Of a stretch of 58,884 bases of DNA, positions 17,361 through 50,471 are shown piece by piece. A program made the position numbers and the translations under genes. Each line of letters opens with the position of its first letter. Within the stretch, counting starts at the first letter, position 1. The notes under the pieces are model-generated. The model searched no databases. It saw nothing but the letters and a program-made list of their open reading frames with translations, and was not told the origin of the DNA. The stretch comes from Candidatus Merdinaster equi (GTDB taxonomy: Bacteria > Bacillota > Clostridia > Lachnospirales > Lachnospiraceae). The stretch lies in NCBI GenBank assembly GCA_018064935.1, contig JAGHUF010000008.1, forward strand, positions 1 to 58,884, given 5' to 3'.

Positions 17361-18314
17361 ATGAAAAGACAAGTAATAGGAATCGTACTTGCCAGCATAT
17401 TGGCTCTTTCACTAGTCGGATGTGGCTCCACCCCAACTAGTAGCACTGAGTCTGGCAATAATGTACAGGAAGAGCATGTAACCGAGCCCCAAACCGATAT
17501 AGAATCAGGAGTATCTCAGGACTATATTGAGCCAGACAATGGCAACTCTACACAAAATGATGCTGATGAACCAGCTCAGAGTGTGAACACCGATTCAGCG
17601 CCCGACAATGAAGCAATCAATTTCTTCATTGATAGAAATATAAGTAACAATGACCGTCTAATCGATCTATTGTTTACTGACAAAGACGAAGCAGGAAACC
17701 CCTCGATGCTTTATGCAAAAGGTGGCAACCACAGCGAGATAACGCTTTGTAATTATCAGATTGTATCGGGATCCATTGATAACTGCAGCAAAGAGAATTC
17801 AATTATCATATACGCAGATTGTTTGTACAACGACAACGATTCCGATCCGCTATGCATCAATATGTACCCTTCCGGAGAAGGCAACACATGGGAGATGATG
17901 ATTACCAGTCCTTCGGACCTGGAAGGTTTCTATTCAATCGGTGGTGATGGTCCAGCTGTCACAGCATCAAACAATTCATCTTCTGTTAATCTCGATAATC
18001 CTTCATATTGGTTCGTTAACTACACTTTTACAAGCGACGATGAGGAATCTTCTTTCAAACTGATAAGTGATAATGGTGGTGATCCTACCAAAATAGAAAT
18101 CGTTCTTGGTGATCCATATTATGTGAATAATACATTCGACATAGACAGCTTCTCAGTGCAACAGCATGGTTCCATGTACACTGTCACACTATCGTATATG
18201 AATTATGATTCCAGTGGCGAACCCCTTCTGTCGGCTTTAGATTTCGATTGTCAGGACGGCGAAGCACAGGTAAGTGCTCCGGGCAACATGGTTGGACATT
18301 ATAAAGGATTTTAA
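17361..18314 (+). CDS. Lipoprotein of unknown function
   Basis: 317 residues. Signal peptide and lipobox LSLVGC (Cys21), a Ser/Thr/Asp/Glu-rich linker (about 24-85), then a globular part with many aromatic and acidic residues (about 88-317). I do not recognise the domain. GGAG lies nine bases before the ATG. It is transcribed divergently from rho and runs into the three-gene surface operon from the opposite side, with only 29 bases between the two stop codons. Confidence 0.85.
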   Translation: MKRQVIGIVLASILALSLVGCGSTPTSSTESGNNVQEEHVTEPQTDIESGVSQDYIEPDNGNSTQNDADEPAQSVNTDSAPDNEAINFFIDRNISNNDRLIDLLFTDKDEAGNPSMLYAKGGNHSEITLCNYQIVSGSIDNCSKENSIIIYADCLYNDNDSDPLCINMYPSGEGNTWEMMITSPSDLEGFYSIGGDGPAVTASNNSSSVNLDNPSYWFVNYTFTSDDEESSFKLISDNGGDPTKIEIVLGDPYYVNNTFDIDSFSVQQHGSMYTVTLSYMNYDSSGEPLLSALDFDCQDGEAQVSAPGNMVGHYKGF

Positions 18315-18343: not shown

Positions 18344-19636
18344 CTATGGAACAGTAAGAAATCCAATTTCACTTATGCAGATATCATCATATTTTGTACC
18401 TTTCTCTGCACTATATATTACGAAGGATACTTTCTTTACCACATGAACCTTACCGAAGCGAACATAATTGCTGAATGCATAGTCACTCACACTAAAATTC
18501 GTAGTCCCAGCGACAAGACCATATTCAAATAAGTCAAACATTTCTTCCGTTCCATCATCCAGCATAACATTTATCCATCTGACTTTTCCATTCTGCTTAT
18601 AATGGTCATTGCTCTTGAAATAACCATTAGCAATATAGAAACCTGCTAGCGGAACTGCTTCATAGAATTCAAAGGTTACTGTCTCTCCAACTCCTTCTCC
18701 AGAAATCCCCTCTACCCACGCCGTTTTAGAATTATTATCAATCAGATTCTTTGGTGCATATTTGCCACTTCCGGGTTCAAGTTCTGAAGTTGCAGTGACA
18801 CTCTTAATTTTCGAGTTTGGTATATCATCCAGTTCCATATCCGACAGATCAATATTTTCATATTTGCCTGCTATATCAGAATAGCCCTTTTCTTCGTCAT
18901 CCTGAGAGTCATTCACATCCATATTTTCACCCTCAGGATAGTCTTCATAATAATCTTCCATTGGAATTTCGGTATACTGAGTTTCCCCATCATCAAAAGC
19001 TTCATCTTCTATGAGTACTTCTGGCTGTTGCTCTTCGCTAGTCTCATACGCATTATTAAATCCCATTTCCAACTCGTTCTGCTGAGCAGAATATGGTTGC
19101 ATTGCCAAGTCTTCTATTCCATCTGAACCTGCATATGGATTAAAGGAATGCTGAGCCGCATAGCGGTCGCCTTCCGGAAACTTAATGATACCCGTGAGGA
19201 ATAAGACAGCAACTGACGCTATCAGAATACCTATTGTAGATATTATCCCAAACAGGTATTTACTCTTATTCTTGGCACCAGCGCCAGCAGCCAAAACCTG
19301 CTGGACATTCTGTTGCATAGTTTCTATCGGCTGAACCTGCTGCTCATTTTGCTGCACTGCTTCCATAGGCTGAACCTGCTGCTCATTTTGCTGCACTGCT
19401 TCCATAGGCTGAACCTGCTGTTCATTTTGCTGCACTGCTTCCATAGGCTGAACCTGCTGCCCGCTCGGCTGCGCGGCTGCCGTATACACTGACTGCGATG
19501 TCTGACCAGTTTCTGGATTAAACCAGTTAACAACCGTTACAGGTTGACCATTGTCATCAGTAGCATCAAACTGTTTAAAATACAAACCCGAATTATTATC
19601 CCACTGATAATCCTCCGGCGGATTAAAATTAGCCAT
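18344..19636 (-). CDS. Single-pass surface protein: WFN/TG N-domain, Q-rich repeats, discoidin-like C-domain
   Basis: 430 residues. Residues 1-50 form a short domain with SGLYFKQ and VVNWFNPETGQTSQSVY that is also found in the first gene of this operon. Three exact copies plus remnants of QVQPMEAVQQNEQ follow, then one membrane helix (about 130-150), an acidic linker, and a C-terminal domain (about 290-430) with ATSELEP, KNLIDNNSKTAWVEG and a terminal beta strand set, resembling the discoidin-type carbohydrate-binding fold sometimes annotated as NADase-type glycan-binding. The N-domain would be cytoplasmic and the glycan-binding-like domain outside. The start at 19636 lies ten bases behind AGGAGAGG; TTG at 19645 is too close to it. 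Confidence 0.82.
   Translation of the reverse strand: MANFNPPEDYQWDNNSGLYFKQFDATDDNGQPVTVVNWFNPETGQTSQSVYTAAAQPSGQQVQPMEAVQQNEQQVQPMEAVQQNEQQVQPMEAVQQNEQQVQPIETMQQNVQQVLAAGAGAKNKSKYLFGIISTIGILIASVAVLFLTGIIKFPEGDRYAAQHSFNPYAGSDGIEDLAMQPYSAQQNELEMGFNNAYETSEEQQPEVLIEDEAFDDGETQYTEIPMEDYYEDYPEGENMDVNDSQDDEEKGYSDIAGKYENIDLSDMELDDIPNSKIKSVTATSELEPGSGKYAPKNLIDNNSKTAWVEGISGEGVGETVTFEFYEAVPLAGFYIANGYFKSNDHYKQNGKVRWINVMLDDGTEEMFDLFEYGLVAGTTNFSVSDYAFSNYVRFGKVHVVKKVSFVIYSAEKGTKYDDICISEIGFLTVP
19292..19468. repeat. 39-bp tandem repeats coding Q-rich segment
   Basis: Three identical 39-bp units (19331-19369, 19370-19408, 19409-19447, the third differing at one base) encode QVQPMEAVQQNEQ, with a degenerate unit on each side. 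The period is 13 codons, so the frame is preserved. Confidence 0.9.
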
Positions 19637-19667
19637 ATTCTTCAATCCTCTCCTAAGCTTTTCACCT

Positions 19668-22556
19668 TTAGATTTCTATCTTTTTATAATAGTATTTACT
19701 GTAGTCATGATCGCTGTAGTCTCCCGTCTGGTAGCCACCGAAATGCTTATAATAGACAACCTCGACCATAGCTGGAAGAAGCCAATTATTTGCTACATCT
19801 CTCATATGCGCTTCCTTTGCTTCTCGCTCCATATCTCTACCAGCTTTAAGCAAATCCTTCTTGCCCGCCAATACGTTTGGTGCATCAGCAATTGCGCCAA
19901 AGATACCCGGAATTCCCTCAGTTACAATAGACCTCATGCCAGCCGAGAAGTTTCCTTCCGACTTCTCAATCTGATATTTAGCCCACTTTAAGCATTCCAG
20001 TTCCTCCTTCGCCTCCTGACCAAGATCACTGGTATCCTTCTGAACAGTTTCCTCAAGTTGCCTTATACTCTCATTAAGTCTATAACTAATTTCCTCTCGT
20101 CCGCTTTTATTCAACAACTGATACAGAGTTTGGAAACTTACATTATTATTAGAAAGATAGTGATAATATTCCTCAGGAGTCATACTTGTTAGCACATTTT
20201 TGAATGAGTGGTAATATGGATTCTTTTTAACCGCCTCATCATCAAAAACCATCACCTGCTTTTTAGCCGGTGCCTGCACCAGCTCTGGTCCCTGCATATT
20301 GTTTTGCCCAGCATCTTGATTCTGGTCATCTGACGAACTCGAATCACCATTTTCCTGGTCGACATTATTCTGTTCATCATCTTCCTCAAGTTCACGAAGA
20401 GCGGCCTCCAATGGAGAAAGAGGCTTGAGACTATCTGTATTAATGTCGCCCTTGAATTTTGAACTTTCTTCAGGCAGAAAGACCTGCTCAACAGAATAAT
20501 AATCAACATCCAGCGACAACTCCCATATTCCAGCCACATCATTATAGATAAGAAGAACATCATAGGTATAATCACAGGGTTCTAACTCCATCAGTTGTTC
20601 AAGAACATAAACACCTGCTTTTGCTTTATACATAGCTTCATCAGAAGTCCAATCCGTTATGTTATAACGCCCTGAATTCTTAAAATCCCTCGACAGCTGA
20701 TCTATTTCAGCACTAGTTGCTGTATGCATATGCGCATAGGTTGTCTGATGGACGCGGACAATAGCTACACTGTTATCATTCGCAATCTGATTAACCTGAT
20801 ATGTTGCCTCAATACCTGAGTAGATAGTACCGAGAATATAATCAGCTGAATTCTCTCTGATATATTCAACCGCTCCGTCCACGTCTCCTTTGTATTTCTT
20901 GAAGTCACTAACGTCAACATAGGCATCCATCATTGCTTCACGAATTGTCTGACCATAAAAATACCGGTTATTGAAGTCCGCTGTTCCCTTCGCTGAATAT
21001 ACTGGTTCTGATCTAAACGAACCACCATGTGTAATATAGTAGAAATATTCATCCATCGCCGGAATGATATTATCGACAGGAATACTGCTGCCGGACGATA
21101 CGCTATTATTGTCTGGGCTATTGCCATCCACATTATTATCTACTCCGCTAGCATCTCCATTTGCCTTATCCCCTGCGTCGGTGTTACTATCGCCTTCTGA
21201 ACTTACATCAGAATCTATAACTGCGTTTCCATTCGTATCTACACTGGTATCTGTTCCGTCAGCTGATGAATCAGACAAATATGGATCTCTTCTCAATCTG
21301 AACGGAGCTTTCTGAATATTCCGAGCAGGAATACTAGCCGCATAGCTCTCTTCCATTGTGAAGGCCGCTCTGTCAAATGTTCCTGTAACCGCAGGAGATA
21401 CATCCACCATATTACCCCAGTCACCAACATACAGAAGCGAAGTTTCCTCGAAAGGACTATCTGGTAGGCGGTCAGTTATACGGAAATTCACAGCAAGATC
21501 ATTCGCTGCAATTGCATCAATATATCCATTCTGCGTCACAAATGATGCTACCGGATACTGCGAGATAACTTTCGCCTTAGTTCCTGATTCATCCATCGCA
21601 TATAAATACATATCCTCTGTGCTCTGGAACACCACCTTTCCATCACAGGTACTAAGTCCTGTTCCATTCATGCACCTGGTGTCCTCAATTCTTCCACTTT
21701 TATCAATACAAAGAATCTGGTTGGTATTATATGAGCTGTCATCCATATGGCAAACTTCAAGATACAAGTGCGTAGCCGTTGTTGCTGATGCCACAAATGT
21801 ATCTCTATCTCCCATAGGGCGAATCGTTCCTACACTCTGCGCATCCGCATCCAGGCGGAAGTACTCTCCGACATATCTCCCCTGCTCATTCTGGCACAGG
21901 GTGAGTGCATATATATCGCTCCCATCTGTTTCAACCTGAAATACGCGATATGTATCATTTCCAAAACGATGATACTGCGGATTAGTTGTGAGCTTATCAA
22001 GTGAATCGATATTGGAAATGCGATAGAAAGCTCCTCCAACTTTTCGATCTGATGGAAGCTGATAATCCTTATAATCTGAATACAACTCATAATTGGTATC
22101 GGTAAAATATAGCGAGTTATCAAAAATAATTATGTTGGCAGCATAGAAATCAGCAAGTGGTATGACTTTATCTGTTTTTTTGCTGGTAGCCACCAAAAAA
22201 CCAGTCTCATCATCCGCCGGTCCAAAAATCCAGTCTTCGTTTTCTGCAAAGAACTTATTTGGATCAGAATTATATGCAAGTACCTCCGACTCATTGTACT
22301 TTTTCTCGCTACTGTCAAATGTACTCAGAAGATTTGCCTCAAGTAACTCTCCATTATAAGGATATGCCTCCTTAACCATTACCGGCTCTTTATCAAGACC
22401 ATAGGTCTCCACAATCGCATCATCCAGGAGATGCGGCTGCTCAACATAATTCTTATTCGTTTCTATTACTACAAACATGAAAAAGAGTAATATCATGTTC
22501 AAAAGAATAAGTGGAAACAGGAATTTTGTATTTATTTTTCTCGACCTATTTTTCAT
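19668..22556 (-). CDS. Large secreted/membrane-anchored protein of unknown function
   Basis: 962 residues. One N-terminal membrane helix (about 15-33) and no cleavage site I can argue for, so probably anchored with its bulk outside the cell. Residues about 80-430 hold repeated beta-type segments (for example GSDIYALTLCQNEQGRYV, GNDTYRVFQ, EDMYLYAMDESG) that look like a propeller of the DUF5050 kind; this is pattern reading only. A Ser/Asp/Gly/Asn-rich linker (about 435-500) follows, then an all-alpha/beta part, an acidic Asn/Gln linker (about 715-745), and a helical C-terminal region. It is the middle gene of a three-gene operon: its start is one base behind the stop of the first gene. Confidence 0.85.
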   Translation of the reverse strand: MKNRSRKINTKFLFPLILLNMILLFFMFVVIETNKNYVEQPHLLDDAIVETYGLDKEPVMVKEAYPYNGELLEANLLSTFDSSEKKYNESEVLAYNSDPNKFFAENEDWIFGPADDETGFLVATSKKTDKVIPLADFYAANIIIFDNSLYFTDTNYELYSDYKDYQLPSDRKVGGAFYRISNIDSLDKLTTNPQYHRFGNDTYRVFQVETDGSDIYALTLCQNEQGRYVGEYFRLDADAQSVGTIRPMGDRDTFVASATTATHLYLEVCHMDDSSYNTNQILCIDKSGRIEDTRCMNGTGLSTCDGKVVFQSTEDMYLYAMDESGTKAKVISQYPVASFVTQNGYIDAIAANDLAVNFRITDRLPDSPFEETSLLYVGDWGNMVDVSPAVTGTFDRAAFTMEESYAASIPARNIQKAPFRLRRDPYLSDSSADGTDTSVDTNGNAVIDSDVSSEGDSNTDAGDKANGDASGVDNNVDGNSPDNNSVSSGSSIPVDNIIPAMDEYFYYITHGGSFRSEPVYSAKGTADFNNRYFYGQTIREAMMDAYVDVSDFKKYKGDVDGAVEYIRENSADYILGTIYSGIEATYQVNQIANDNSVAIVRVHQTTYAHMHTATSAEIDQLSRDFKNSGRYNITDWTSDEAMYKAKAGVYVLEQLMELEPCDYTYDVLLIYNDVAGIWELSLDVDYYSVEQVFLPEESSKFKGDINTDSLKPLSPLEAALRELEEDDEQNNVDQENGDSSSSDDQNQDAGQNNMQGPELVQAPAKKQVMVFDDEAVKKNPYYHSFKNVLTSMTPEEYYHYLSNNNVSFQTLYQLLNKSGREEISYRLNESIRQLEETVQKDTSDLGQEAKEELECLKWAKYQIEKSEGNFSAGMRSIVTEGIPGIFGAIADAPNVLAGKKDLLKAGRDMEREAKEAHMRDVANNWLLPAMVEVVYYKHFGGYQTGDYSDHDYSKYYYKKIEI

Positions 22557-22557
22557 A

Positions 22558-23418
22558 TCAATTATCCTCTGCATCCATTCGCTGCTTATCTACGACAAAT
22601 TCAATCATCTTTGAACCGGTATCCGGCCAATACTCAATATCTTTAAAATTCGCTTCGATCATCAGATCTCCTCTTTCACCTTTGGAGGTGTACACATGAA
22701 ACCAGGTTTCTTCCTTCGTTGTTGTTCCACCAATAGCCAATTCAGCTCTGCAAGCTTCACCATTCACCTCAATAATTGTTGATGATACAATATGAAGCGT
22801 TATGAGCTCCGATTCCGATTTCTTGCTATCCTTCTCGACGAACCAATATCCATCGTATACACACGGAACTGACTCTTCGTTTGAAACATCCTGATTGCCC
22901 TGTGTTTCGCCATACTCATTAGTGCCTGTGGATTCATTTGAACCAGCGCCTTCATTCGAGCTACCATTTCCATTTGAACCTGTATCTATTGTATATTCTA
23001 ATGTACGACCCGAATCCATACTCTCTGCTTCAGCAAGCTCTGTCCCGTCATTTTGTGGTTCCTCAAGCTGAGCCAGATTATTCCCCCCGCTATCGTTGTC
23101 ACTAGTAACATCTGTAGCCTGAGTATTTGAGTAAATCTCACTCTTAGCTGAACGTCTCACCTGAAGCGCAATCAGTCCGACAATAATAACAATAGCCATG
23201 ACACATGCACCATACAGCATTACCCAGGTCAATCCCCTTTTGATTTTGCCAGGCTTCTTCACCGGATAAACGCTTGTGGTGCACTCTCCTGTATCTGCGT
23301 TAAACCAATTTACAATCTGACTCTTAGTGCCGTCAGCATTCTCCTCAATATGCTGGTCATAGAAAAGTCCTGACTTTTCATCATACATATATCCGTTTGG
23401 TGGAAGATATTTCGCCAT
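22558..23418 (-). CDS. Single-pass surface protein with WFN/TG N-domain, first gene of operon
   Basis: 286 residues. Residues 1-52 (PPNGYMYDEKSGLFYDQ, then QIVNWFNADTGECTTSVYP) match the N-terminal domain of the third gene product. A basic stretch (KKPGKIKRG) and one membrane helix (about 62-83) place this domain inside. After a Gly/Asn/Ser/Glu linker comes a C-terminal beta-rich domain (about 170-280) with YDGYWFVEKDSKKSE and an immunoglobulin- or lipocalin-like strand pattern that I cannot assign. The start at 23418 uses AGAGGG or AGGAG immediately upstream. Operon with the two following genes. Confidence 0.84.
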   Translation of the reverse strand: MAKYLPPNGYMYDEKSGLFYDQHIEENADGTKSQIVNWFNADTGECTTSVYPVKKPGKIKRGLTWVMLYGACVMAIVIIVGLIALQVRRSAKSEIYSNTQATDVTSDNDSGGNNLAQLEEPQNDGTELAEAESMDSGRTLEYTIDTGSNGNGSSNEGAGSNESTGTNEYGETQGNQDVSNEESVPCVYDGYWFVEKDSKKSESELITLHIVSSTIIEVNGEACRAELAIGGTTTKEETWFHVYTSKGERGDLMIEANFKDIEYWPDTGSKMIEFVVDKQRMDAEDN

Positions 23419-23536: not shown

Positions 23537-23570
23537 AAAATAAGTGGGTACACAGTCATACCCACTTATA
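23535..23570 (-). terminator. Terminator of the sugar-transport/two-component operon
   Basis: Stem ATAAGTGGGTA / TACCCACTTAT with a ten-base loop and five T residues on the minus strand, about 65 bases behind the sensor-kinase stop codon. Confidence 0.88.
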
Positions 23571-23634: not shown

Positions 23635-25173
23635 TTATCCTAATCTCACTACCTTAAGATGACTAATCACTGTAGTTCCAACTCCTGCTTCAGATTCAAT
23701 ACGTATTCCGTACCCTGGTCCACAGGCGATGCGAATTCTCTTTTGTATATTGGCAAGAGCAATTCCTTTAATTCCTCCCTCGCTAGGACTTTCTTCTTTT
23801 TCTATTTTATCCATAATTTCAGATAGACGATTCTTATCAATTCCACATCCATCATCAGATATGTATATATACAAATCATCCTCTATACATGTTTTTATTG
23901 AGATATTTATTTTCTTTTTTCCACTCAGACCATGAGCAATTGCGTTCTCTATCAGCGGTTGCAAAATCATCCTGGGGATATAGATATCTTCAAAATAATC
24001 CTCCACATCATAAGAATACTCAATTTTCCCTGGATACCTGACCTTCATAATTCCTACATATTGCTCAAGAATATGAAATTCTTCCATGAGGGTAATCAAT
24101 TCGTCAGGAGAATTCGAATATCTGAGAAGCCATGACAACTCATCACACATGTGTGTTGCTTCGTTTTTTTCACCCTTATTAATCAACGAACGAACCGCAG
24201 TCAAAGTATTAACCGTAAAATGCGAGCTAATCTGCTTTTTGAGCAGACTCGTCATTGTTCGCTCATTTTCAAGCTGTGCCTCCTGAACCTGCATCTTGCT
24301 TTCCATAAGCTGCCGCTCCTGTGGACCAAGTGCCGTCTTATTCCAATAGAAAGTATAGAAGGCGATAATACCAACTAAAATAATGAGCATTATCGGTAGG
24401 GCAATATAAAAATAACCACTCAGTTCCTGGGACATGGTATTGTCGCAGTATACTAATAAAGTAAGTCCGGTAAGCCCTATGCTCTGCTCCTTGTATATCA
24501 CACTATCATTTTTTATTGCCTCAATATCTTCGTATCTGATATCCCTGTTGGCACACAGTATCTGTTCTCCGGATATTAGCACGATTCCCATGTAATCTAT
24601 TTCTGAGTAGTCCGTGAAAATATATTCTAGTTTCGCTTTGTCCAATAGCAATACAACATAGCCAAGCTCCTCTGACATATCAGTAATTTCTCTGGCAGTT
24701 CCGATTACCGCGACACCATTTGCATTAACTAGAAAATTATTCAGTTGTCCCTTTTCAAGCAGAATTTTCACTCTGGTTAGAACCGTATTCGAGCATTTTC
24801 CCTTTAATCTATAACACAAGCCTTCTCTTCCAATCACTATGATATCACTCACCGGATTGTCAGTTCGAATAATAGCTAGAACATCTTCCGACACTTCACC
24901 ACCATAATCGTAGAATTCCTTTGTCTCTACGATACCAGCAAGTTTCACGACTCTACTGTTATATGCGAGGAAATAACTAATCTCTTCTATCGATCTGAGT
25001 TCATCCTCAACCCTTGAAAGAATTGCCTCAGATTGAACCTGCGCCTGAACAGATGCGTTTTCACGAACATTCTGAATCGTAAGAAAATAGAAAGCACACC
25101 AAATAAACACCAGGCTTATACCAAGTGATGCCATGGCAATTATGAATTTTCTAAGTGTTCTCTCTTCCTTCAT
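23635..25173 (-). CDS. Sensor histidine kinase, YesM/LytS type
   Basis: 512 residues. Two membrane helices (about 11-33 and 256-275) flank an extracellular sensor of about 220 residues that looks like a Cache domain. The cytoplasmic part has the His_kinase block with the phosphoacceptor His318 in LKKQISSHFTVNTLTAV, a changed version of the usual QINPHFLYNTL, and an ATPase with MILQPLIENAIAHGL (N box) and DDGCGI (G1). It should phosphorylate the AraC-type regulator encoded three genes upstream in the same operon. The ribosome-binding site is weak. Last gene of the operon. Confidence 0.9.
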   Translation of the reverse strand: MKEERTLRKFIIAMASLGISLVFIWCAFYFLTIQNVRENASVQAQVQSEAILSRVEDELRSIEEISYFLAYNSRVVKLAGIVETKEFYDYGGEVSEDVLAIIRTDNPVSDIIVIGREGLCYRLKGKCSNTVLTRVKILLEKGQLNNFLVNANGVAVIGTAREITDMSEELGYVVLLLDKAKLEYIFTDYSEIDYMGIVLISGEQILCANRDIRYEDIEAIKNDSVIYKEQSIGLTGLTLLVYCDNTMSQELSGYFYIALPIMLIILVGIIAFYTFYWNKTALGPQERQLMESKMQVQEAQLENERTMTSLLKKQISSHFTVNTLTAVRSLINKGEKNEATHMCDELSWLLRYSNSPDELITLMEEFHILEQYVGIMKVRYPGKIEYSYDVEDYFEDIYIPRMILQPLIENAIAHGLSGKKKINISIKTCIEDDLYIYISDDGCGIDKNRLSEIMDKIEKEESPSEGGIKGIALANIQKRIRIACGPGYGIRIESEAGVGTTVISHLKVVRLG

Positions 25174-25217: not shown

Positions 25218-26369
25218 CTATTTCTTAATTATTCTTTCAAAGAATTCGTCCATCTGTGCACTCTTTGCACTTAGTTCCAGTGGATCAGGAATAAGAAGCT
25301 GATTGTCCGGAACATACATTGCATCCTCATTTATTACATCTGTTCTTGCCGACCAGGTTCCCTTTGTAAGAAATGGCTTATACCCTTCTCCTGTTCCATC
25401 ACTTCCACCAAGCAGAAACCAAATGAATAACTTTGCAGCATTCACATTTTTGGATCTGGATGCAAGCATAACCGAGTAGGAACTCTTACATCCGCAAAAC
25501 GGTTCGAGGTTCGTAATCGCTTCAAAGGAATAACCATAATCCTGCATTCTCAATTTGCTTGAAACCATAATTCCAAAGTCAGCTTTACCTTCAGTAGTGC
25601 CAAGTGCTTCATACACCTCATCACTACTGTTGGTAAATACAACATTTTTACTCAACTCTCCCAAGAATAATTCTGATGCTGAATTGTATTCCCCTAAATT
25701 CAGCTCTCTTCCATACAATTTTGTGTACGCTTCTTCCACAACCTGCGACTGATCCAATATGCTTCCGAATAGCGCATAAGTAGAAAATGACCGAAGTGGA
25801 TTAGGTACATATATTTTTCCCTCATATTTGGGGTCTGTAAGTTCCCAGATATTTGATATCGGACATGCCTCATACTTCTCTGTATTATAGAAAAATAAAT
25901 CCGCCTCTATTAAGAAACTTATCGTATCTCCCACACAATCTGGCTCCATGTTAGTTCTGATATCATCCGGAACATATGGCACCACAGCTCCCGTTTTTAC
26001 CAACCTATCATAAAAGCTGCCACTATTATCGTTACACACAACCACATCGCATTCGCCTGAGCCACTATCATAATTGGTCCACACAGCCTCAACAAGATCC
26101 GGACTTCTCAAATCTCTGACCTCGACACTGAGTCCTGGATAGGCTTTCTCAAAGGCCTCTTTCACCTTCGTAATTCTGGTAGAGACAGTATATACAATCA
26201 ATGTATCCTCCTTGAGTGCGGCTTCATAGAGTTCCGCCTCATTTTTCACCTCTGCCAACTGCTCTTTGCTCGACATATTATCAGCTGTATTAGCTGTACT
26301 AGCGCACCCCGTCAAAATTAATGCCGAGGCAAGAACTAGTCCCATTACCGCACTACTTATTCTATTCAT
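25218..26369 (-). CDS. Extracellular solute-binding lipoprotein (Fe3+/PgtC-like binding-protein family 1)
   Basis: 383 residues with signal peptide and lipobox LTGC (Cys22). The mature part starts LIVYTVSTRITKVKEAFEKAYPG, typical of family 1/6 binding proteins (AfuA, PgtC, FutA), with EADLFFYNTEKYEA and YALFGSILDQ later. Such proteins bind ferric iron, organophosphates or small acids. No matching permease is next to it, and it sits directly before a sensor-kinase gene, so it may deliver a ligand signal to that kinase (inference). The start overlaps the preceding gene by eight bases. Confidence 0.88.
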   Translation of the reverse strand: MNRISSAVMGLVLASALILTGCASTANTADNMSSKEQLAEVKNEAELYEAALKEDTLIVYTVSTRITKVKEAFEKAYPGLSVEVRDLRSPDLVEAVWTNYDSGSGECDVVVCNDNSGSFYDRLVKTGAVVPYVPDDIRTNMEPDCVGDTISFLIEADLFFYNTEKYEACPISNIWELTDPKYEGKIYVPNPLRSFSTYALFGSILDQSQVVEEAYTKLYGRELNLGEYNSASELFLGELSKNVVFTNSSDEVYEALGTTEGKADFGIMVSSKLRMQDYGYSFEAITNLEPFCGCKSSYSVMLASRSKNVNAAKLFIWFLLGGSDGTGEGYKPFLTKGTWSARTDVINEDAMYVPDNQLLIPDPLELSAKSAQMDEFFERIIKK

Positions 26370-27732
26370 CTGTTCCCTCTTCTCCTTTTATCAGGCTAAT
26401 CCATTCCTGCTCGTATTCTTTTACTATTTTCTCATCATATACACGAGACGACCTATCCACCGGCAGGTATGGCTGGTAACTCATCTTGGCTCTTGCATCT
26501 ATATATTCCATGTCAGAATTAATACCATTCCATGTCACTCCTAGAAATAACTCTTCTGGAACATGCTTAGGGCCAATTCCATTCAAATGCTTATTCTGAG
26601 GGCTGTTCCAAATGTAGTTGATTGTTGATATTTTCGCTTTTTCACCATATATACTTACATCCAGCCCATCAGAGTATCCCCAGTCCACCCCTGGTTCACC
26701 AAATCTAGCAATCAAAGAAGCCTCTGGCGACATCATAATATCAAGCAGTTTCTCGCATTCAGCCTCCTTGCCGGTTCCATTAATAATCACCGCTCCCGGA
26801 CTTGGTTCTCTTGAGACATATAATGTGTTTCTTTCACCCTCTGGTCCCTTTAAAGGCAATACACAGATATACTTCGCCATAATTTCTGGATTACCCTGAT
26901 ATATAACCTCTCCAATAGAATCCGACGTGAAAGCTCCTACTATATTCTCCGGACTATTTACCATTTCTGTCAGCTGACTTGTCGAATAAGTAAACAATCT
27001 GTCATCAATCAGTCCATCCCTATACAGCTTTCTGCAATACTCTACTCCACACGCGAACTCAGGTGTTTCCGGAACGAAGGTCTCCTCACCATTTTCCAGA
27101 CTGAATAAGCTGTGATACGGATCGCAGTAAATATACGCATTCATCATATAGTACAGTGGATTCAAGGCATATTCATCCATACTTCCAAGCAGCGGAATCT
27201 CATCTTTAAGCCCATTTCCATTCGGGTCCCTTTCCTTGAATGCCCTAAGCATATCCTCAAACTCGTCCGTCGTTTGCGGTATTTCAAGCGATAACGCACT
27301 CAAATAGTCCGAATTAATCCACAGAACCTGCCCACATCCACTAGAAACTGAGTCACCATAATCTCGATAGACATAATCGCCATTTGATGCTGTGTATATA
27401 TAGCCATTCTCATGATATTGATCAAGGTATTCCTCTGAGGGCACAAAAGAATTACCAAACAACACAATATCAATTTCTGTGTCTGACGATGCTAAGTTCT
27501 CCAAATATTCCTCGCATCTGGTCTGTCGTATTTCAACAGGTATGATGTCCACTCCTGATTTTTCCTCTATCCAGTTCAGGTAATAATTGGATTCCAGATT
27601 CTGTACATTATCTGAATAAGGTATTCCCAAACGTAAAGAAAGAGGTGCGCTTTCCTTTGCACACCCCGGCAAAAAACATATTCCAATCACTAGGCCTACA
27701 AGCCAGCCCAATCTGCTCTTCCACCCGTTCAT
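26362..27732 (-). CDS. Extracellular solute-binding lipoprotein, sugar type
   Basis: 456 residues. Signal peptide and lipobox LPGC (Cys24). The fold is that of CUT1 binding proteins of the LplA kind: RDPNGNGLKDEIPL is a typical calcium-like loop, and NYYLNWIEEKSGVDI stands near the start. It lacks its own permeases and lies between the response-regulator and the second extra binding-protein gene. GAGG lies eleven bases upstream. It could be an alternative binding protein for the importer encoded upstream or a co-sensor for the kinase. Confidence 0.87.
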   Translation of the reverse strand: MNGWKSRLGWLVGLVIGICFLPGCAKESAPLSLRLGIPYSDNVQNLESNYYLNWIEEKSGVDIIPVEIRQTRCEEYLENLASSDTEIDIVLFGNSFVPSEEYLDQYHENGYIYTASNGDYVYRDYGDSVSSGCGQVLWINSDYLSALSLEIPQTTDEFEDMLRAFKERDPNGNGLKDEIPLLGSMDEYALNPLYYMMNAYIYCDPYHSLFSLENGEETFVPETPEFACGVEYCRKLYRDGLIDDRLFTYSTSQLTEMVNSPENIVGAFTSDSIGEVIYQGNPEIMAKYICVLPLKGPEGERNTLYVSREPSPGAVIINGTGKEAECEKLLDIMMSPEASLIARFGEPGVDWGYSDGLDVSIYGEKAKISTINYIWNSPQNKHLNGIGPKHVPEELFLGVTWNGINSDMEYIDARAKMSYQPYLPVDRSSRVYDEKIVKEYEQEWISLIKGEEGTDE

Positions 27733-27747: not shown

Positions 27748-28476
27748 CTACTGCCTCTCAATCATCTCCTTGGGTGAAGATTTATAAAACTCTTTAAATA
27801 CTTTGTAAAACTGCACATACTCCCTGTAACCACATTCAATCGCAATATCCTTGAGGAGTTTGTTCTTATCAGCAAGGAGTTCCTTGGCATGAATCATTCT
27901 CTTTTCCGTCAAATAGCAAGTCAAAGACGTATTGTAATATTTAGAGAAAAGGTTGCAGATATAATTCTTGCTAAAGCCAAACTTCTTGGACAACAAATCC
28001 AACGTGATTCTCGAAGAAAAATTATCGTCTATATAATTAATCAGCTCGTCAAAGCATGCGTTCTTTGAGCCCTCTTTGTCCTGATTCTTCTCCGGCTTTA
28101 TTTCCTTAAGTCTAAGCACAAGCCGCTCAAGCACCATCTGAATATCATCTAATTGAACTGGTTTGAGTATATAATCGAACCCGGACTGCTGGAAAAAAGT
28201 TCTGACATTGTCAAAATTATCATAGGCGCTGATCATCACGAATTCGCAATCCACGCCACTTTCCTTCAAAGTCTTAATCAAGTCGTTACCACTCATCCCA
28301 ATCATCTTCAAATCACAGAAAACGACGTCTGGCTTAAGACTCTTGATTTCACTGCAGGCAACTTCCGGATTAACATTGCTTCCTACTACCTCAAAGCCAT
28401 TATCCATCCATGGTATTGTCCGAATAAACTCATCTAAAATTAATTCTTCATCATCCACTAAATATGCTGAGAACAT
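27748..28476 (-). CDS. Response regulator, YesN/AraC type
   Basis: 242 residues, shorter than most YesN proteins. N-terminal receiver with DDE at 8-10, phosphoacceptor Asp55 (VVFCDLKMIG) and the Lys of the KPVQ loop, followed by a short linker and an AraC-type double helix-turn-helix (about 135-240; FGFSKNYICNLFSKYYN, IAIECGYREYVQFYKVFKEFY). It is expected to be phosphorylated by the kinase encoded at 23635-25173 and to activate sugar-uptake genes, probably including this operon. GGAGG sits just upstream of the ATG. Confidence 0.92.
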   Translation of the reverse strand: MFSAYLVDDEELILDEFIRTIPWMDNGFEVVGSNVNPEVACSEIKSLKPDVVFCDLKMIGMSGNDLIKTLKESGVDCEFVMISAYDNFDNVRTFFQQSGFDYILKPVQLDDIQMVLERLVLRLKEIKPEKNQDKEGSKNACFDELINYIDDNFSSRITLDLLSKKFGFSKNYICNLFSKYYNTSLTCYLTEKRMIHAKELLADKNKLLKDIAIECGYREYVQFYKVFKEFYKSSPKEMIERQ

Positions 28477-34133: not shown

Positions 34134-34934
34134 TTACACTACAAAATAATGTCTTCCCAGCCAGAGTGATAATCCATCAAGTCCCTGATAGAGAATTCGT
34201 TCACTGATATTCTGCTGATCAAGCATATCCCTAACTCTCCAGCGTAATTCCTTCTTTATCACATATTTCACTGTGTTATTGGTATTTGCATCAAGGAAAC
34301 CTTCTATATCATTAACAGCATCAGGCACGATTGAGAAGAAGGAATACTGATTAACTATTCTTGGATCAATCGACGGAGGCTCTATTACTACCATTGATTT
34401 ATCACTCATGTCTGAATCATACTGTGACAGAGAGCCTGTAATCTCATTAAGCATATCAACCGTGAAAACTGAAGTCTGCTTACTGTTTAACTTATCCTGG
34501 TAAGCCTTTGGCAGAAGTGAATGCATCTCCTTAATATCAATACGCCATATCATACAATCACGCGTATTCATCTTATTCAGATCTCTCTCAGTAGTCGCAA
34601 AATGAAGAGCGATAAGTGGTGAATGTGACCAGTCTAATAACCTTGTAGGCAAACCATGATGCTGTCCCAGAATCATCTGTCTCCAGACGCTCCTCTCAAT
34701 CGCAGGATCTTCCAGAACTCCATACTTGGTAAAATTCATCAGAATACATGGTTCCAATTCCTTCTTATTATTCTTGCAGTTTCTATACAGAGATGTCTGC
34801 AATTGAAAATCAACATTTGGCATTCCTCTATATACATACAGACTTCTGTTTCTTCCCAAATCCTCTCTGTATTCTTGCTCAGTAATAAGTGGAAGAACAT
34901 CATCTATGGAATCAATAATTACTTCTTTAACCAT
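34134..34934 (-). CDS. FRG-domain protein
   Basis: 266 residues. The FRG signature is clear: YVYRGMPN (about 33-40) and LGQHHGLPTRLLDWSHSPLIALHFA (a strongly conserved block, about 88-112), with later conserved VIEPPSIDPRIVNQYSFFSI. FRG domains are widespread in bacteria, some of them in defence-type or toxin contexts, but their activity is not established to my knowledge. The start overlaps the previous gene by 16 bases and AGGAG is within that gene, so it belongs to the signalling operon and is its last member. This company with histidine kinases is unusual and suggests a regulated effector (inference). Confidence 0.88.
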   Translation of the reverse strand: MVKEVIIDSIDDVLPLITEQEYREDLGRNRSLYVYRGMPNVDFQLQTSLYRNCKNNKKELEPCILMNFTKYGVLEDPAIERSVWRQMILGQHHGLPTRLLDWSHSPLIALHFATTERDLNKMNTRDCMIWRIDIKEMHSLLPKAYQDKLNSKQTSVFTVDMLNEITGSLSQYDSDMSDKSMVVIEPPSIDPRIVNQYSFFSIVPDAVNDIEGFLDANTNNTVKYVIKKELRWRVRDMLDQQNISERILYQGLDGLSLWLGRHYFVV

Positions 34935-36988
34935 ATCTGCAATTTCTCCTCTTCTTTTCTAATTGCCGCCACGTCCAGATTGAGAACATGCTTCTCGACC
35001 TCACTGATTACTGCTGCCATCTCAGACGGATAACTATATTCCTTTAGCTGGGCTACCGCCAAATCGGCTGTCTCCATATCAAATTCCTGAAGAGCATTCT
35101 CAATTGTCTTAATTCCTGACTGAACAACATCTGGATCAAATGGCTTAAGCTTCTCTTCTTCCTTGGAAACAACACCCGGAACAAGTTCAAGATTTCTCAA
35201 AAACTCCTCATAGTCCGCGATGAAGTTTTCAGTCTGATTAAGTATATATTCCCTGTCATTATCCCTTGCAGCGAACTCAAGCGCCTTAGCCTTGTCAGAC
35301 AATTCCATTGCACCAATTGTCTTACTTGTTCCCTTGAGCGCATGGACCTTAATTCTATAATCTTCCCTAGATCTATCAGTATCTGATGTCTTATATTCAT
35401 AGAACAGATCACTCACCTCGCGGACAGTCTCTGCTCCCTTTTTATACAGCTGAATAGCGGTCTGAATAATAACATCCTTCGTCGGTAGATACAGGTATGT
35501 CTGCGACCAGTCAATTCCCGGAACATCAGGAAGTGGTGCATCTGCGGCTGCGCTATCTTCTACAGAAGCAGTATCATTAACCTCTTCTTCAACAGCAGTC
35601 TTCACAGCCTTTTGCGCCCGTTTTGCCATTTCCTTCTCAGCCTTCATCTTTTCTTCAATCTGCTCTATACACTTCTGCGCGGCATCATGCAGACTTAAAG
35701 ATTCATCGGCATTACGTGATACAGGCACGAAGAAATTGGTCTTTGCAACAGTCCCAGTTCCATACTCGGAAGACAAAATAAGATTACCACCCATTAGTGA
35801 TACAATCTTCTTTGCGCGATACAGTCCAAGTCCGGCTCCGCCATGACTACGTGGTCCCTTTTCCTCATGCTGGTAGAATGCCTCAAATACGTTATCTATA
35901 TCAACACTCCTGATTCCTGAACCAGTATCCGATATCTCGCAGGTAATCTCCTCGTTTCCCACTCTTGCGCCTGTCTGATACATTGTAAGGCACACGCTTC
36001 CACTATTGGTATATCGAATCGCATTATCTAATAGCGCCGACAGAACCGTATAAATACGATCTTCATCTCCCACAAAAAAAGTATTCCCTTTCTCTGGCAG
36101 ACGAATCTCTAATTTAAGTTTCTTTTCCTTTGCTATAGGAATATAGGTACTAAGCAACTTCTCAAGGACTTTTCGTAAATCAAGTTCCTCCTCCCTGAGC
36201 ACCATTTTTCCTTTTTCAAGAGAAGTATAATCCATCAAGGCTTCTGAGAGTCCTAATAAATAGCGTGAATTGCCCTCTATTCTCTTAAGCAGTTCTCTCT
36301 TTTGCTTCTCGTCTATCTCATCATTTTTGAGGCTCTCCCCTGACATAAGGATAGTTCTTGCAGGTGCACGAAGATTCTTGGCCATACGGAGAATTGAATC
36401 CATATTAGTGCTGGTAGAATCCTTGGCCTCATCATACATAGCTTCAACAACCACCAGCATATCCTGGCTCGCTCTCTCCTGCTGAAGATTCTTATCTTCC
36501 TTATCCTTCAGGGTTCCAACAAGCAGAAGTACAAACCACATGCATATTATGATTGCTCCAGTGCAGGTTATGTACTGATAGATACTCATAAGCTGTTCCC
36601 CAGAGGATATGAATAAGAACAACAATCCTGACTCCTCAACAAGCGCAGTTACACCACTTGCTAGCCTGCTCTGAAAGAAAGCAACTACAGGCCACTGAAG
36701 AAGGCACACTATTTGAAACATCAGAGGGCTTTCCGTTGCTATCGACATCTGGTATGCCAGAATTGCAGTTATTAATGCAAAAGTGCAACAGAATACCCGA
36801 CCATGAGTTCTTTTCTTAGTCATGATAATAAAAACTATTATCGACAAAGTTATCTCACCAAGCAGGATAAATACTTCCTGCGAGGGAAAAGAGTACCATC
36901 CAATATAAAATACAATAGTGAGGAAAGCCTCAATGCCAAAGACCAGTACTGCGAGAGTTTTTCCATAATGTTCCATTCTATTATCCAT
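34919..36988 (-). CDS. Membrane histidine-kinase-like protein with HPt domain, phospho-His of DHp replaced
   Basis: 689 residues. About five to six N-terminal membrane helices (10-160), a DHp-like helix pair, an HATPase domain (N box LLDNAIRYTNSG, G1 DTGSGI, G2 GGAGLGLYRAK) and a C-terminal HPt domain with His549 in VHALKGTSKTIGAME. The DHp H-box reads MAKNLRAPARTIL where active kinases have MSHEIRTPLNAIL: the phosphoacceptor His is Lys204. Autophosphorylation in the classical way is therefore unlikely; the HPt histidine can still accept phosphate from receiver domains of the neighbouring hybrid kinases. An Ala/Glu-rich linker (about 440-490) joins ATPase and HPt. The start overlaps the preceding gene by eight bases; AAGGGGG precedes it. 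Confidence 0.9.
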   Translation of the reverse strand: MDNRMEHYGKTLAVLVFGIEAFLTIVFYIGWYSFPSQEVFILLGEITLSIIVFIIMTKKRTHGRVFCCTFALITAILAYQMSIATESPLMFQIVCLLQWPVVAFFQSRLASGVTALVEESGLLFLFISSGEQLMSIYQYITCTGAIIICMWFVLLLVGTLKDKEDKNLQQERASQDMLVVVEAMYDEAKDSTSTNMDSILRMAKNLRAPARTILMSGESLKNDEIDEKQKRELLKRIEGNSRYLLGLSEALMDYTSLEKGKMVLREEELDLRKVLEKLLSTYIPIAKEKKLKLEIRLPEKGNTFFVGDEDRIYTVLSALLDNAIRYTNSGSVCLTMYQTGARVGNEEITCEISDTGSGIRSVDIDNVFEAFYQHEEKGPRSHGGAGLGLYRAKKIVSLMGGNLILSSEYGTGTVAKTNFFVPVSRNADESLSLHDAAQKCIEQIEEKMKAEKEMAKRAQKAVKTAVEEEVNDTASVEDSAAADAPLPDVPGIDWSQTYLYLPTKDVIIQTAIQLYKKGAETVREVSDLFYEYKTSDTDRSREDYRIKVHALKGTSKTIGAMELSDKAKALEFAARDNDREYILNQTENFIADYEEFLRNLELVPGVVSKEEEKLKPFDPDVVQSGIKTIENALQEFDMETADLAVAQLKEYSYPSEMAAVISEVEKHVLNLDVAAIRKEEEKLQIWLKK

Positions 36989-39900
36989 GGATTGTTACCC
37001 CCTTCGGCAATACAAAATCAAGACCCTGTTTAATGATCTCCGCCTTCCATTCTGTGACATCCTTAACAAGCTCACCATCAAAATTCATTTCAACTGGCTT
37101 GTCATCTTTTCTTCTTATTCGAATAGAACGGCATTCTCCATATATTGAATACTTTTCAAATTTTTCTTTTCTGCCTTTTATTGTATGAGACACAAGTGGC
37201 AATGCTGTAATACCCTGATAATCTCCACCAAGCATGAACACTGCTCGTCCATCAGCAACCATTGCCTCCTTGTCGAAGTGCATCATTCCTCCCAGAACAA
37301 CGCCATTTCCGAAGAATATCTCACCCATCTTGCCTTCATACAGTCTGTTGTCTATATATACCTCATAATCGAGTGGCGTTGCCTTGAAGATTGTGTTAAG
37401 GAAAGCGAGCACATACGGTGCCATTCGGCCAAACACTCTTAAGTTTCTATAGTTCTCAACCTTATTAACAATTCTCGAATCAAGACCTGTCGAAAACGTA
37501 TTCAGCGCCAGGCCATGATTAGTTCTGATGTAATCAATCTTCTGAGTCTCACCATCTATAAGGTTTTCTATATTCTTGAAGTACTCCTCATCACTTCCAA
37601 AGGTCTTCATGAAGTCATTGGTCATGCCACCTGGACATATAGCGAGCTCAACTCTGCCAAAGTCCTCAATACCATTTAAGATATTTCTTGCTGTTCCAGA
37701 ACCTCCGCAGCTGTAGATTCTGAGTCTTCCCTTATCAAAATAGTTCTGAACCTTTCGAACAATCTCAGTCTCATCGCCTGCACCTGCCGAAGTGAAGATA
37801 AATGATCTGATATCTGTTCTTCTATCAAGAATATCTCGAAGACCAGACATATAATCCCTGTTTCCTACTGTCGGATTGATAATGAAAATGTGCGTAAGCT
37901 GATTATCATCATCCCTGCCAGATGCCACATTGTTATCTTTAACATCCCTGTTAAACTGTCGTCTGAGCTTGGCCTTCTCCTCATTGTCCAGAGTATCAAG
38001 AACAACCGTTCCTTCATCCTCATATTCTTCGTTATTTTCAGAGTTTGCCCTGTCCTTTTCAATTAGGTAGGCTGGCAAGTACTGAAGCAGTGTCTTTTCA
38101 AGCGCCCTACCCAAAATAGGCTTTGCCATATAATCAGTAAAACCATAATCAAGGTACATCTCCTTAGCACCAGAAACTGCATTTGCTGTAAGTGCAATAA
38201 TCGGTGTCCCCTCTGCCAAACCCTTTTCATTTATCTGCTTAAGAGTTTCAACACCATCTAGTTCAGGCATAAGGTGATCCAGGAAGATTACGTGGTATTC
38301 CTTCTTATCGATAAGTTCCAGTGCCTCCCTGCCATTTACCGCAGTATCAATCTGAATCTGGGTTCTGTGAAGAAGCAGGCTCGCAACCTTAAGATTCATA
38401 TCATTGTCATCTGCAATAAGAATTCTAGCCCCAGGCGCCCTGAAGGTCTGCTGCTCGTTCCTGTCTCGCTCCTGCTGGAACATCTTGAAACGAGTTTCAA
38501 AATCTCCGATTGGATCAAAAGAGACTACTCTCTGGGTCAGTCTTAATGTGAATACCGATCCTTTACCATACGTACTCTTAAGAGAAATATTACCTCTCAT
38601 CATACGGACATACTGGCCGACGATAGCAAGACCTAATCCACTTCCTTCAACATTCTTACTTCGCTTCTGGTCCGCCCATTCAAAAGCATCGAATATGTGT
38701 CTCTGCTCATCTGGCTGAATTCCCTTACCAGTATCCGCAACCTCTACAATAAGAACAATCTCTTCCTCATCTCGTCTCGCATAGTTGGCCTTTACTGTGA
38801 TGCTGCCCTTGTTAGTATACTGGCAGGCATTATTAAGCAGGTTGCGTAGTATTTGTGCAACCTTTATCTCATCCCCATACAGAAAATCTGGAATCTCCGG
38901 ATCAACCTGAGTAATCAGCTCAATTCCTTTTTTTCTAGTCTCATCATAGGTATCCTGCATAAGCTCATTGAGAATTGAGCTAAGTCTGTACTCAACAGGA
39001 ATTATGTCCATCTTGCCGGACTCAAGTTTCGAGTAATCCAGAATATCATTAACTGTGGACAGAAGCTTCTTACCTGACTCCTGCATGCTCATTGCATAGT
39101 TCTTAACCTGAGCATCACTACTCTCCCTGTAGATCATCTCATTCATTCCGAGAATAGCATTGATAGGTGTTCTGATTTCATGCGACATATTTGCAAGGAA
39201 ACTACTCTTTGCATCACTCGCCTCTATCAGCTCGTTGATCATCTTACCTTCTTCTGTCATGTCAAAGACTGTGCAGATATAACAGTAATTCTCGTCGTTT
39301 TCATCCTTTGCAACATTGAGATAAACCGTGCATTTTCTGTCCTGCTCGCGGCTCTGGAATCTGAAGCAGTCCTCACCTGCTGCCGCTCTTTCAAAAAGAG
39401 TCTTTTCCGACATTCCATTGAGTTCAAACAGCTCCGAGATTCTCTGCCCTCTGACATTGGTTATACCAAGCATCCTTGAAGCGGCAGGATTCATAACAAG
39501 CAGATGTCTGTCCATATCAAATGCCATAAATGCAGTCTTAACATTCTCATACATAAATGTAGACAGATTATCCTCACATATGTCATAAGTATGGAATCTG
39601 TTTGCAATGTATACCATGAACAGATAGGTCAGTGCTCCACCAATAGGAGCAGTTGATACTATCTCAATCCCAAGCCTCGGGAAAAGAAAATCCGGCACTG
39701 TAGCAAGGAACATGAATATATTAGTCAGCGTCAACAGGAATCTGAATCTTCTGTCTCTCGCATATATCGTCTTCATCTTCCATCTGATGATAAGTGCAAT
39801 AAGCATAACAATAACTATGCCAAGATATATTACATGCGCAATTTCTCCAACTGTATCTGCGCTCAGATAGAAGGTGATTCCGTCGACAATCACAAAACTC

Positions 39901-40253
39901 TTATCTTCACCAACTGCAAACATCACCAGGTCTGCAATGGATATTCCTCCCATCACAAGCCCCATGAAGAATCTGGCAGTCTTATTGATATCTCCCTTAT
40001 ATGCAAACCACATCATCTCCCCGATAAGGAAACAATCCGCGCCAAAAAGTCCAATAAATCTCCATACCTTCGCCTGTGCAATAACCTCGGAAAAACCAAG
40101 AAATGCATAGCCAATATTCCACAGGGTACATGCAATACCCATCACAATCAGATATTTATTGATATCACTCGATTTTTTACACTTTCTGTAATAGTCCTGC
40201 GCAACAAAGAAGACCACGGATGCGCATATGACTAAGGCCATACTGATAATCAT
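36981..40253 (-). CDS. Hybrid histidine kinase fused to a diacylglycerol-kinase-like domain
   Basis: 1090 residues. Seven membrane helices (1-220), a PAS-like segment (about 230-335), DHp with His358 (NMSHEIRTPINAILGM), HATPase (NLLNNACQYTNKG, ADTGKGI, GSGLGLAIV), a receiver with Asp659 (VIFLDHLMPELDG) and, after an acidic linker, a 300-residue DAGK/YegS-like lipid-kinase domain (about 786-1090). The latter has THIFIINPTVGNRD at its start, CGGSGTARNIL at about 849 where GGDGT is standard, CPGGMTNDFMKTFG at about 873, and a beta-rich C-terminal lobe ending in NFDGELV. The Asp-to-Ser change in GGDGT leaves catalysis uncertain. From residue 1 to the receiver Asp it aligns with the next kinase without length change. 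Start coupled (ATGA) to that gene. Confidence 0.93.
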   Translation of the reverse strand: MIISMALVICASVVFFVAQDYYRKCKKSSDINKYLIVMGIACTLWNIGYAFLGFSEVIAQAKVWRFIGLFGADCFLIGEMMWFAYKGDINKTARFFMGLVMGGISIADLVMFAVGEDKSFVIVDGITFYLSADTVGEIAHVIYLGIVIVMLIALIIRWKMKTIYARDRRFRFLLTLTNIFMFLATVPDFLFPRLGIEIVSTAPIGGALTYLFMVYIANRFHTYDICEDNLSTFMYENVKTAFMAFDMDRHLLVMNPAASRMLGITNVRGQRISELFELNGMSEKTLFERAAAGEDCFRFQSREQDRKCTVYLNVAKDENDENYCYICTVFDMTEEGKMINELIEASDAKSSFLANMSHEIRTPINAILGMNEMIYRESSDAQVKNYAMSMQESGKKLLSTVNDILDYSKLESGKMDIIPVEYRLSSILNELMQDTYDETRKKGIELITQVDPEIPDFLYGDEIKVAQILRNLLNNACQYTNKGSITVKANYARRDEEEIVLIVEVADTGKGIQPDEQRHIFDAFEWADQKRSKNVEGSGLGLAIVGQYVRMMRGNISLKSTYGKGSVFTLRLTQRVVSFDPIGDFETRFKMFQQERDRNEQQTFRAPGARILIADDNDMNLKVASLLLHRTQIQIDTAVNGREALELIDKKEYHVIFLDHLMPELDGVETLKQINEKGLAEGTPIIALTANAVSGAKEMYLDYGFTDYMAKPILGRALEKTLLQYLPAYLIEKDRANSENNEEYEDEGTVVLDTLDNEEKAKLRRQFNRDVKDNNVASGRDDDNQLTHIFIINPTVGNRDYMSGLRDILDRRTDIRSFIFTSAGAGDETEIVRKVQNYFDKGRLRIYSCGGSGTARNILNGIEDFGRVELAICPGGMTNDFMKTFGSDEEYFKNIENLIDGETQKIDYIRTNHGLALNTFSTGLDSRIVNKVENYRNLRVFGRMAPYVLAFLNTIFKATPLDYEVYIDNRLYEGKMGEIFFGNGVVLGGMMHFDKEAMVADGRAVFMLGGDYQGITALPLVSHTIKGRKEKFEKYSIYGECRSIRIRRKDDKPVEMNFDGELVKDVTEWKAEIIKQGLDFVLPKGVTIHG

Positions 40254-42463: not shown

Positions 42464-42489
42464 ATTCCTAAGTTCTTTCTGCTATTGAA

Positions 42490-44538: not shown

Positions 44539-44562
44539 AGTCTTCTCTAATCTCTAAAATCA

Positions 44563-44593
44563 CAAAAGGAACGGAATTACTCCCGTCCTTTTA
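44563..44593 (-). terminator. Terminator of the L,D-transpeptidase gene
   Basis: AAAAGGACGG / CCGTTCCTTTT stem with an eight-base loop; a T-rich tail follows on the minus strand. Only 24 bases separate it from the signalling operon's first start codon, so that operon's promoter must overlap it or the terminator must be leaky. Confidence 0.8.
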
Positions 44594-44603
44594 TGCTATC
44601 CTA

Positions 44604-45410: not shown

Positions 45411-45459
45411 TTCATAATATCCTTTTTTTCGTTTCCTACGTAAGCGTACAGCCTAGAAA

Positions 45460-45489
45460 ATTATACTATACAGCTTGTTTTTTGTCCAA
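45460..45489 (-). promoter_or_regulatory. Promoter of the L,D-transpeptidase gene
   Basis: TTGGAC (45484-45489) and TATAAT (45460-45465) on the minus strand, 18-base spacer, about 50 bases before the start codon. It begins right behind the terminator of the upstream gene. Confidence 0.7.
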
Positions 45490-45491
45490 TG

Positions 45492-45531: not shown

Positions 45532-45559
45532 CTCTGCAAACTGACTATTCGTTAGGCAA

Positions 45560-47860: not shown

Positions 47861-47890
47861 ATGTAGCCCTTATAACAGCAATCATTGTTT

Positions 47891-50449: not shown

Positions 50450-50471
50450 ACTTATCCCCATTTCTAATCTT

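Follow-up and report, generated by a model that had tools for sequence, protein, structure and literature searches.

A stretch of DNA of 58,884 nucleotides from Candidatus Merdinaster equi, a member of the Lachnospiraceae (hereafter the window), contains three closely spaced genes, P1, P2, and P3. They raise a simple question: why do two membrane proteins with unlike outer parts begin with the same small domain, and what might that domain do?

The P1-P2-P3 operon

The genes and the features within and next to them are as follows.

22558..23418, minus strand: P1, 286 aa; its ATG at 23418 is preceded by an AGGAG-type ribosome site
23257..23418, minus strand: N-domain copy 1 (WFN/TG domain) of P1, residues 1-54, by profile match
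19668..22556, minus strand: P2, 962 aa
21402..22232, minus strand: propeller-type region of P2, residues ~109-385, from Foldseek matches of the model
18344..19636, minus strand: P3, 430 aa
19475..19636, minus strand: N-domain copy 2 of P3, residues 1-54, by profile match
19295..19460, minus strand: 39-bp tandem repeat, 4.3 copies, encoding the QPMEAVQQNEQQV-type 13-residue repeat spacer from the N-domain to the TM of P3
18359..18808, minus strand: NADase-type discoidin / NADase_transloc domain of P3 (PF25302, E 4.7e-31; NF047619, E 4e-31)
23540..23569, minus strand: intrinsic-terminator-like hairpin (13-pair stem) and T run, between a kinase gene and P1

A single base separates P1 from P2 (the P1 stop ends at 22558 and the P2 ATG is at 22556), and 31 bases separate P2 from P3 (P2 ends at 19668 and the P3 ATG is at 19636). 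These coordinates, the gene order, and both gaps are identical on remeasurement to those in the preliminary description of the locus. The terminator-like site, which is to be read as a consensus match only because 5.8 sites of this kind are expected in the region and 11 are present, suggests that P1-P2-P3 have a transcript of their own. Joint transcription with the sensor genes that lie beyond it (discussed later) is unlikely in the window.

The preliminary description also called the operon unrecognised. The operon layout stands, but the architecture of P3 turns out to be a variant of a widespread plan consisting of a zinc ribbon, a transmembrane helix (TM), and an outer domain. Co-conservation of the three genes holds in part: four lineages have an N-domain protein paired with P2, but the full trio with a discoidin P3 is found only here. 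PADLOC assigns no defence family to P1-P3, its single weak stray match falling on a protease of another lineage, SZUA-378, and a search of viral contigs and plasmids found no relatives. A gene for a 317-residue lipoprotein with no Pfam match (17361-18314, plus strand) is convergent with P3.

The shared N-domain

Residues 1-55 of P1 and P3 align without gaps and are identical at 21 of 55 positions, giving a local BLOSUM62 score of 120; 5000 shuffles yield a mean of 23, a standard deviation of 4.6, and a maximum of 58. The common N-terminal domain proposed earlier is therefore upheld, at a length of about 54 residues. So is the claim that each protein has a single membrane helix and a different outer domain: one helix is predicted in each, and the outer parts show no convincing likeness, their alignment score being reached by 27 of 500 shuffles. 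In P1, the N-domain (1-54) and the TM (66-84) are followed by an acidic/Ser-Gly linker and a small beta-rich C-terminal domain, and no Pfam or NCBIfam family matches the protein above cutoff. In P3, the N-domain (1-54), the repeat spacer, and the TM (128-146) precede an acidic linker and the discoidin domain (277-426). The length of the spacer repeat may vary between strains. Both proteins have positive charge on the N side of the helix, and by the positive-inside rule the N-domain is most likely cytoplasmic (N-in).

The consensus of the N-domain is MAxYxAPEGYxxDxNxGLYYxQxxAxDxxGxxxxVVTWFNADTGEYxQxxYP. An AlphaFold2 model based on 20 sequences is a confident four-stranded beta-meander (mean pLDDT 89.5), with predicted strands at residues 11-13, 18-26, 32-39, and 46-52. 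A search of Pfam and NCBIfam with the N-domain gives no family above cutoff, and for this reason the N-domain was no longer considered a known signal for export or anchoring, one of the two refuting conditions named in the preliminary description. Foldseek and VIA-align searches of solved structures give no confident match (best Z of 4.6, to unrelated entries), and so no fold family is claimed; PTP1B, EF-P, and Pur-alpha were set aside as fold kin, since they appear as weak, unrelated rows.

Two known families were compared, and neither fits by profile score or motif. WW domains have two conserved tryptophans about 20 residues apart and an LPxGW start, whereas the N-domain has one conserved tryptophan (W38), Y or F in the place of the first, and no Pfam WW match. 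OCRE (PF17780) is weakly matched by 16 of the 20 N-domain members (best E of 1.9e-4, below cutoff), and the OCRE chains of RBM5 and RBM10 surface at E values of 0.7-0.9. The match of the first member scores 21.8 bits against a gathering cutoff of 24.7 and covers 17 of the 52 profile positions, running through a Y-x-x-D-x-x-T/S-G-L-Y-Y hairpin motif that is also matched by unrelated repeat families. The likeness thus lies in a hairpin motif of the type aromatic-x-D/N-xx-T/S-G-x-aromatic. OCRE domains consist of five imperfect aromatic octamers in tandem (PMC5127646), but the alignment of the N-domain shows at most two hairpin motifs. Both WW and OCRE are absent among the listed Foldseek and VIA-align rows. 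Judged from its profile and alignments, the N-domain is a real domain family and, going by Pfam and NCBIfam, one not curated before.

Distribution of the N-domain family

The profile search that the preliminary description had proposed as a check finds more than 20 copies of the N-domain, spread over Lachnospiraceae, a single Oscillospiraceae MAG, and other Clostridia, six resolvable lineages in all. Outside the window, the domain is present in 6 further lineages, in one of them merely as a contig-end fragment. The genomes are as follows.

G313 (Lachnospiraceae bacterium G11): seven copies in one cluster, a diverged 69-codon copy included
G421 (buffalo rumen MAG RGIG8061), a genus-mate of G313: N-domain present
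G192 (red deer MAG): contig-end fragment
SZUA-378 (L052), a Clostridia MAG: N-domain present
G409/Pal332_bin6 (L053): N-domain present
Pal332_bin16 (L054), an Oscillospiraceae MAG: N-domain present
G506, from another family of the order: a 73-aa soluble stand-alone protein

The domain is rare. It is clear in 4 of the 397 genomes sampled from the family and in 3 of the 392 in the order sample; the class sample yields only the window's genome and a marginal 22-residue match in G819 (6.5e-4). This match and one in G141 (E 5.7e-4), which lies in a frame of 4946 aa, were judged to be chance or short-motif matches. Few lineages are known to carry the domain.

Domain architectures and the zinc-ribbon plan

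Proteins built of a zinc ribbon, a TM, and an outer domain are common in Clostridia. P1 and P3 share this architecture: like the zinc-ribbon (DZR/Zn_Ribbon_1) membrane proteins of Firmicutes, they have a short cytoplasmic N-module, one TM, a disordered linker, and a variable outer domain. Unlike them, they carry an unrelated beta-meander; P1 and P3 have no zinc-ribbon family match and no N-terminal CxxC zinc ribbon. Some relatives carry both modules. In G409 and Pal332_bin16, the N-domain is preceded by zinc ribbons in the same chain, and G409 also encodes a 150-residue protein of zinc ribbon and N-domain that lacks a helix. Among zinc-ribbon proteins, one that bears a name is TcaA of staphylococci (PMC10611510).

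P3 has its outer domain in common with the NADase-type discoidin zinc-ribbon proteins. The domain scores 108.4 bits against a cutoff of 27 for PF25302 and 107.8 against 38 for NF047619, in agreement with the earlier assignment of a discoidin-like outer domain of glycan-binding type; glycan binding by P3 is putative, and no NADase catalytic domain was found on the protein. A search of its own genome with the domain gives a match at E 3.5e-32, and the domain was found in 10 of the 79 related genomes searched. At least five of the discoidin proteins read (L087, L090, L091, L092, and L096) consist of an N-terminal zinc ribbon, a helix, and the discoidin domain, suggesting that P3 is such a protein with the ribbon replaced by the N-domain. 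P3 differs from the NADase_transloc/discoidin family in being membrane-anchored with a new N-domain, and the combination of N-domain and discoidin is seen only in the window.

In members that have a membrane helix, the N-domain is N-terminal to the first predicted helix, and the outer parts are unlike in length and family. Behind the N-domain of relatives come single helices with varied outer parts: a DUF5050-type propeller in SZUA-378 (2.2e-5, just under cutoff), an RCC1-type propeller in G409, and beta domains of unknown kind elsewhere. One paralogue in G313/G421 has five membrane helices instead. From these architectures, the N-domain appears to replace, or elsewhere to accompany, the zinc ribbon. 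It would then be a second, unrelated module at the zinc-ribbon position, sharing clusters and some chains with zinc ribbons, and this common position argues for a docking site for common inner-face machinery. In the G409 cluster (L035:4606-14664), many zinc-ribbon proteins with proline-rich stretches adjoin two N-domain proteins, and a Band-7/SPFH protein with a zinc ribbon is a possible inner-face scaffold.

A candidate partner of the N-domain

What might dock to such a domain? The OCRE domain of RBM5 binds polyproline motifs via exposed tyrosines (PMC5127646), which makes the N-domain as a reader of proline-rich motifs an attractive idea. It would work like OCRE, WW, and GYF domains and dock to a Tudor/Agenet-like scaffold, fused in one lineage to an HtpX-like protease, for inner-face scaffolding or proteolytic control. 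Besides the weak OCRE matches, the idea draws on the clusters of G313/G421 and SZUA-378, which hold a gene for a protein with Tudor/Agenet-like tails and recurring motifs of the PPPPP-hydrophobic-P type, a candidate ligand of the N-domain that the preliminary description does not mention. The G313/G421 and SZUA-378 versions are 34% identical (E 9e-34), their profile matches include Agenet (1.5e-6) and M48 (4e-22), and the SZUA-378 version is fused to an M48 (HtpX-like) protease. In the whole genome of G313, two of the four DNA matches to a PPPP-hydrophobic-P motif fall within this gene, and of the remaining two, one at most is in a sizeable frame; G409 encodes a remote Tudor-like relative that carries a zinc ribbon. 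Against this stand the brevity of the OCRE match, a hairpin motif not peculiar to OCRE, the lack of a confident match by Foldseek and VIA-align, and searches of the window genome that found neither the gene nor the motif. This genome is 75% complete, and so the missing Agenet/proline-rich gene is not decisive. Proline-motif reading by the N-domain is, in our estimate, unlikely. The larger proposal, that a polyproline-reading adaptor plugs interchangeable outer-domain proteins into a Tudor-like/HtpX-protease scaffold with a dedicated solute sensor, is very doubtful; if true, it would make surface assembly a modular system in which docking relies on linear motifs, in a eukaryote-like way. As a domain combination, the M48 protease with a proline-rich part and a Tudor-like tail (L052:11582-13306) is unusual.

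The N-domain might instead be a mere topogenic, folding, or export-assembly element of N-in proteins with no specific partner. Its small size, its restriction to certain lineages, and, in most members, a place close to or at the N-terminal end and ahead of the first membrane helix are consistent with such a role. However, the 73-residue soluble copy of G506 and the 69-codon diverged copy of G313/G421 have no evident membrane helix, the N-domain of G409 follows zinc ribbons, also in the helix-free 150-residue protein, and the conservation of W38, F39, and T-G probably exceeds what a topogenic signal needs. A purely topogenic element is thus quite improbable, and a docking domain is the reading followed below.

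P2 and its pairing with N-domain proteins

The window P2 has no match to DUF5050 (PF16472), and its structural model is poor (mean pLDDT 40.5). Nearly all the leading Foldseek rows of this low-confidence model are beta-propellers, among them 3s25 from Eubacterium rectale, and one P2 homologue matches DUF5050 at 4.9e-9. The propeller-like part that had been ascribed to this anchored 962-residue protein is putative, with support through homologues, and its membrane helix is predicted at residues 13-31. Behind this anchor, P2 has the propeller-type region (~109-385), a disordered linker, an alpha+beta region (~504-680), and a helical C-terminal region; the DUF5050 propeller proteins differ from P2 in that P2 bears long extra C-terminal regions. 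The P2 homologues (G313/G421, SZUA-378, and Pal332_bin16) diverge rapidly, with 16-24% identity to the window P2 over their length. P2 as a query finds nothing in 61 relatives and one clear homologue in the 397 family genomes. The N-terminus of the homologues, read by eye, resembles a signal peptide, from which P2 is taken to be exported; the window version seems to be held in the membrane.

In the window, G313/G421, and SZUA-378, the gene for an N-domain protein lies directly before that for P2 or its homologue; in Pal332_bin16, it lies directly after.

The neighbouring sensor set

Four genes for a predicted sensor, which the preliminary description had missed, lie upstream of P1.

23635..25173, minus strand: histidine kinase (HK) of LytS/YesM type (PF06580, 1.1e-17; HATPase_c, 4.7e-13)
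25218..26369, minus strand: SBP2, solute-binding lipoprotein (PF13531, 6.4e-9; PF01547, 8e-8)
26362..27732, minus strand: SBP1, solute-binding-like lipoprotein (34-50% identical between lineages; not matched by any Pfam family above cutoff)
27748..28476, minus strand: response regulator (RR), receiver and AraC HTH (PF00072, 3.8e-17; PF12833, 7.4e-17)

The set has, in one cluster, the kinase, AraC-type regulator, and secreted binding protein of HptASR-type systems, a works-like comparison only; HptASR has one binding protein and the window has two. Several Lachnospiraceae genera conserve SBP1 along with RR, SBP2, and HK, giving two binding proteins per kinase, and SBP1 looks like a sensor-specific binding protein family. 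In G308, large secreted lipoproteins unrelated to P2 adjoin the set (L078:1192-5350 and L081:3298-5301), which suggests that the set tends to adjoin fast-evolving surface proteins.

The sensor set lies beside N-domain genes in four lineages (the window, G313/G421, SZUA-378, and G506), with differing gene orders; in the minimal locus of G506, the N-domain protein is just upstream of SBP1, and RR and HK are present but SBP2 is not. This adjacency recurs although both are scarce, a clear N-domain being present in 4 of the 397 family genomes and close relatives of SBP1 in about 10. Each partner also occurs alone: at least 6 genomes of other genera have the sensor set without an N-domain in the region examined, and G409 and Pal332_bin16 have the N-domain with no sensor set nearby. 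The linkage is therefore recurrent, not obligatory.

This linkage, and the precedent of HptA, a secreted binding protein that switches the kinase HptS (PMC8774646), could mean that P1 and P3 serve the adjacent two-component sensor as accessory membrane subunits, relaying binding by their outer domains to the kinase; given that the set is more often found without N-domain genes, that two lineages have the domain and no sensor nearby, and that a terminator-like site divides the kinase from P1, such a role is distinctly unlikely.

A proposed docking model for P1, P2, and P3

The explanation that we prefer, and hold to be evenly balanced between right and wrong, combines a cytoplasmic docking N-domain, an envelope assembly of P1, P2, and P3, and a functional tie to the sensor set. 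It builds on the observed family and its architectures, the predicted fold of the N-domain, the recurrent gene pair, and the sensor linkage. The glycan-binding complex with a shared inner partner that the preliminary description envisaged likewise has the standing of a proposal. P1 and P3 would belong to a small family of N-in membrane proteins, mostly single-pass, with a cytoplasmic beta-meander as docking domain. This domain would do the job presumed for zinc ribbons in the related plan and tether proteins whose outer domains differ (small beta domain, discoidin, propellers) to a single partner on the inner face. Together with the large, apparently exported propeller protein P2, P1 and P3 may form one envelope assembly with a ligand of its own, in which P1 would pair with P2, matching the recurrent gene pair, and P3 would contribute a discoidin-type domain facing glycans or the wall. 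The RR/SBP1/SBP2/HK set probably senses an extracellular solute, and may control, or be informed by, the assembly.

The N-domain family, found in a small set of Clostridia, is of interest for Firmicute envelopes, although not categorically new. With a candidate ligand in the proline-rich/Tudor-like protein and a candidate input in the solute sensor, the matter is open to experiment with a single small domain that is well folded.

Other features of the window

A dense signalling run on the minus strand (34134-50488) encodes an FRG-domain protein, a kinase, two hybrid kinases, and two HD/GGDEF proteins, together with an L,D-transpeptidase (YkuD) and a thermolysin-like M4 protease. At 36981-40253, also on the minus strand, a protein of 1090 residues combines the HisKA, HATPase, and receiver domains of a hybrid histidine kinase with a C-terminal domain of the diacylglycerol-kinase/YegS type (DAGK_cat, 3.5e-13; YegS_C, 5.5e-6), an unusual fusion of a two-component protein with a lipid-kinase domain.
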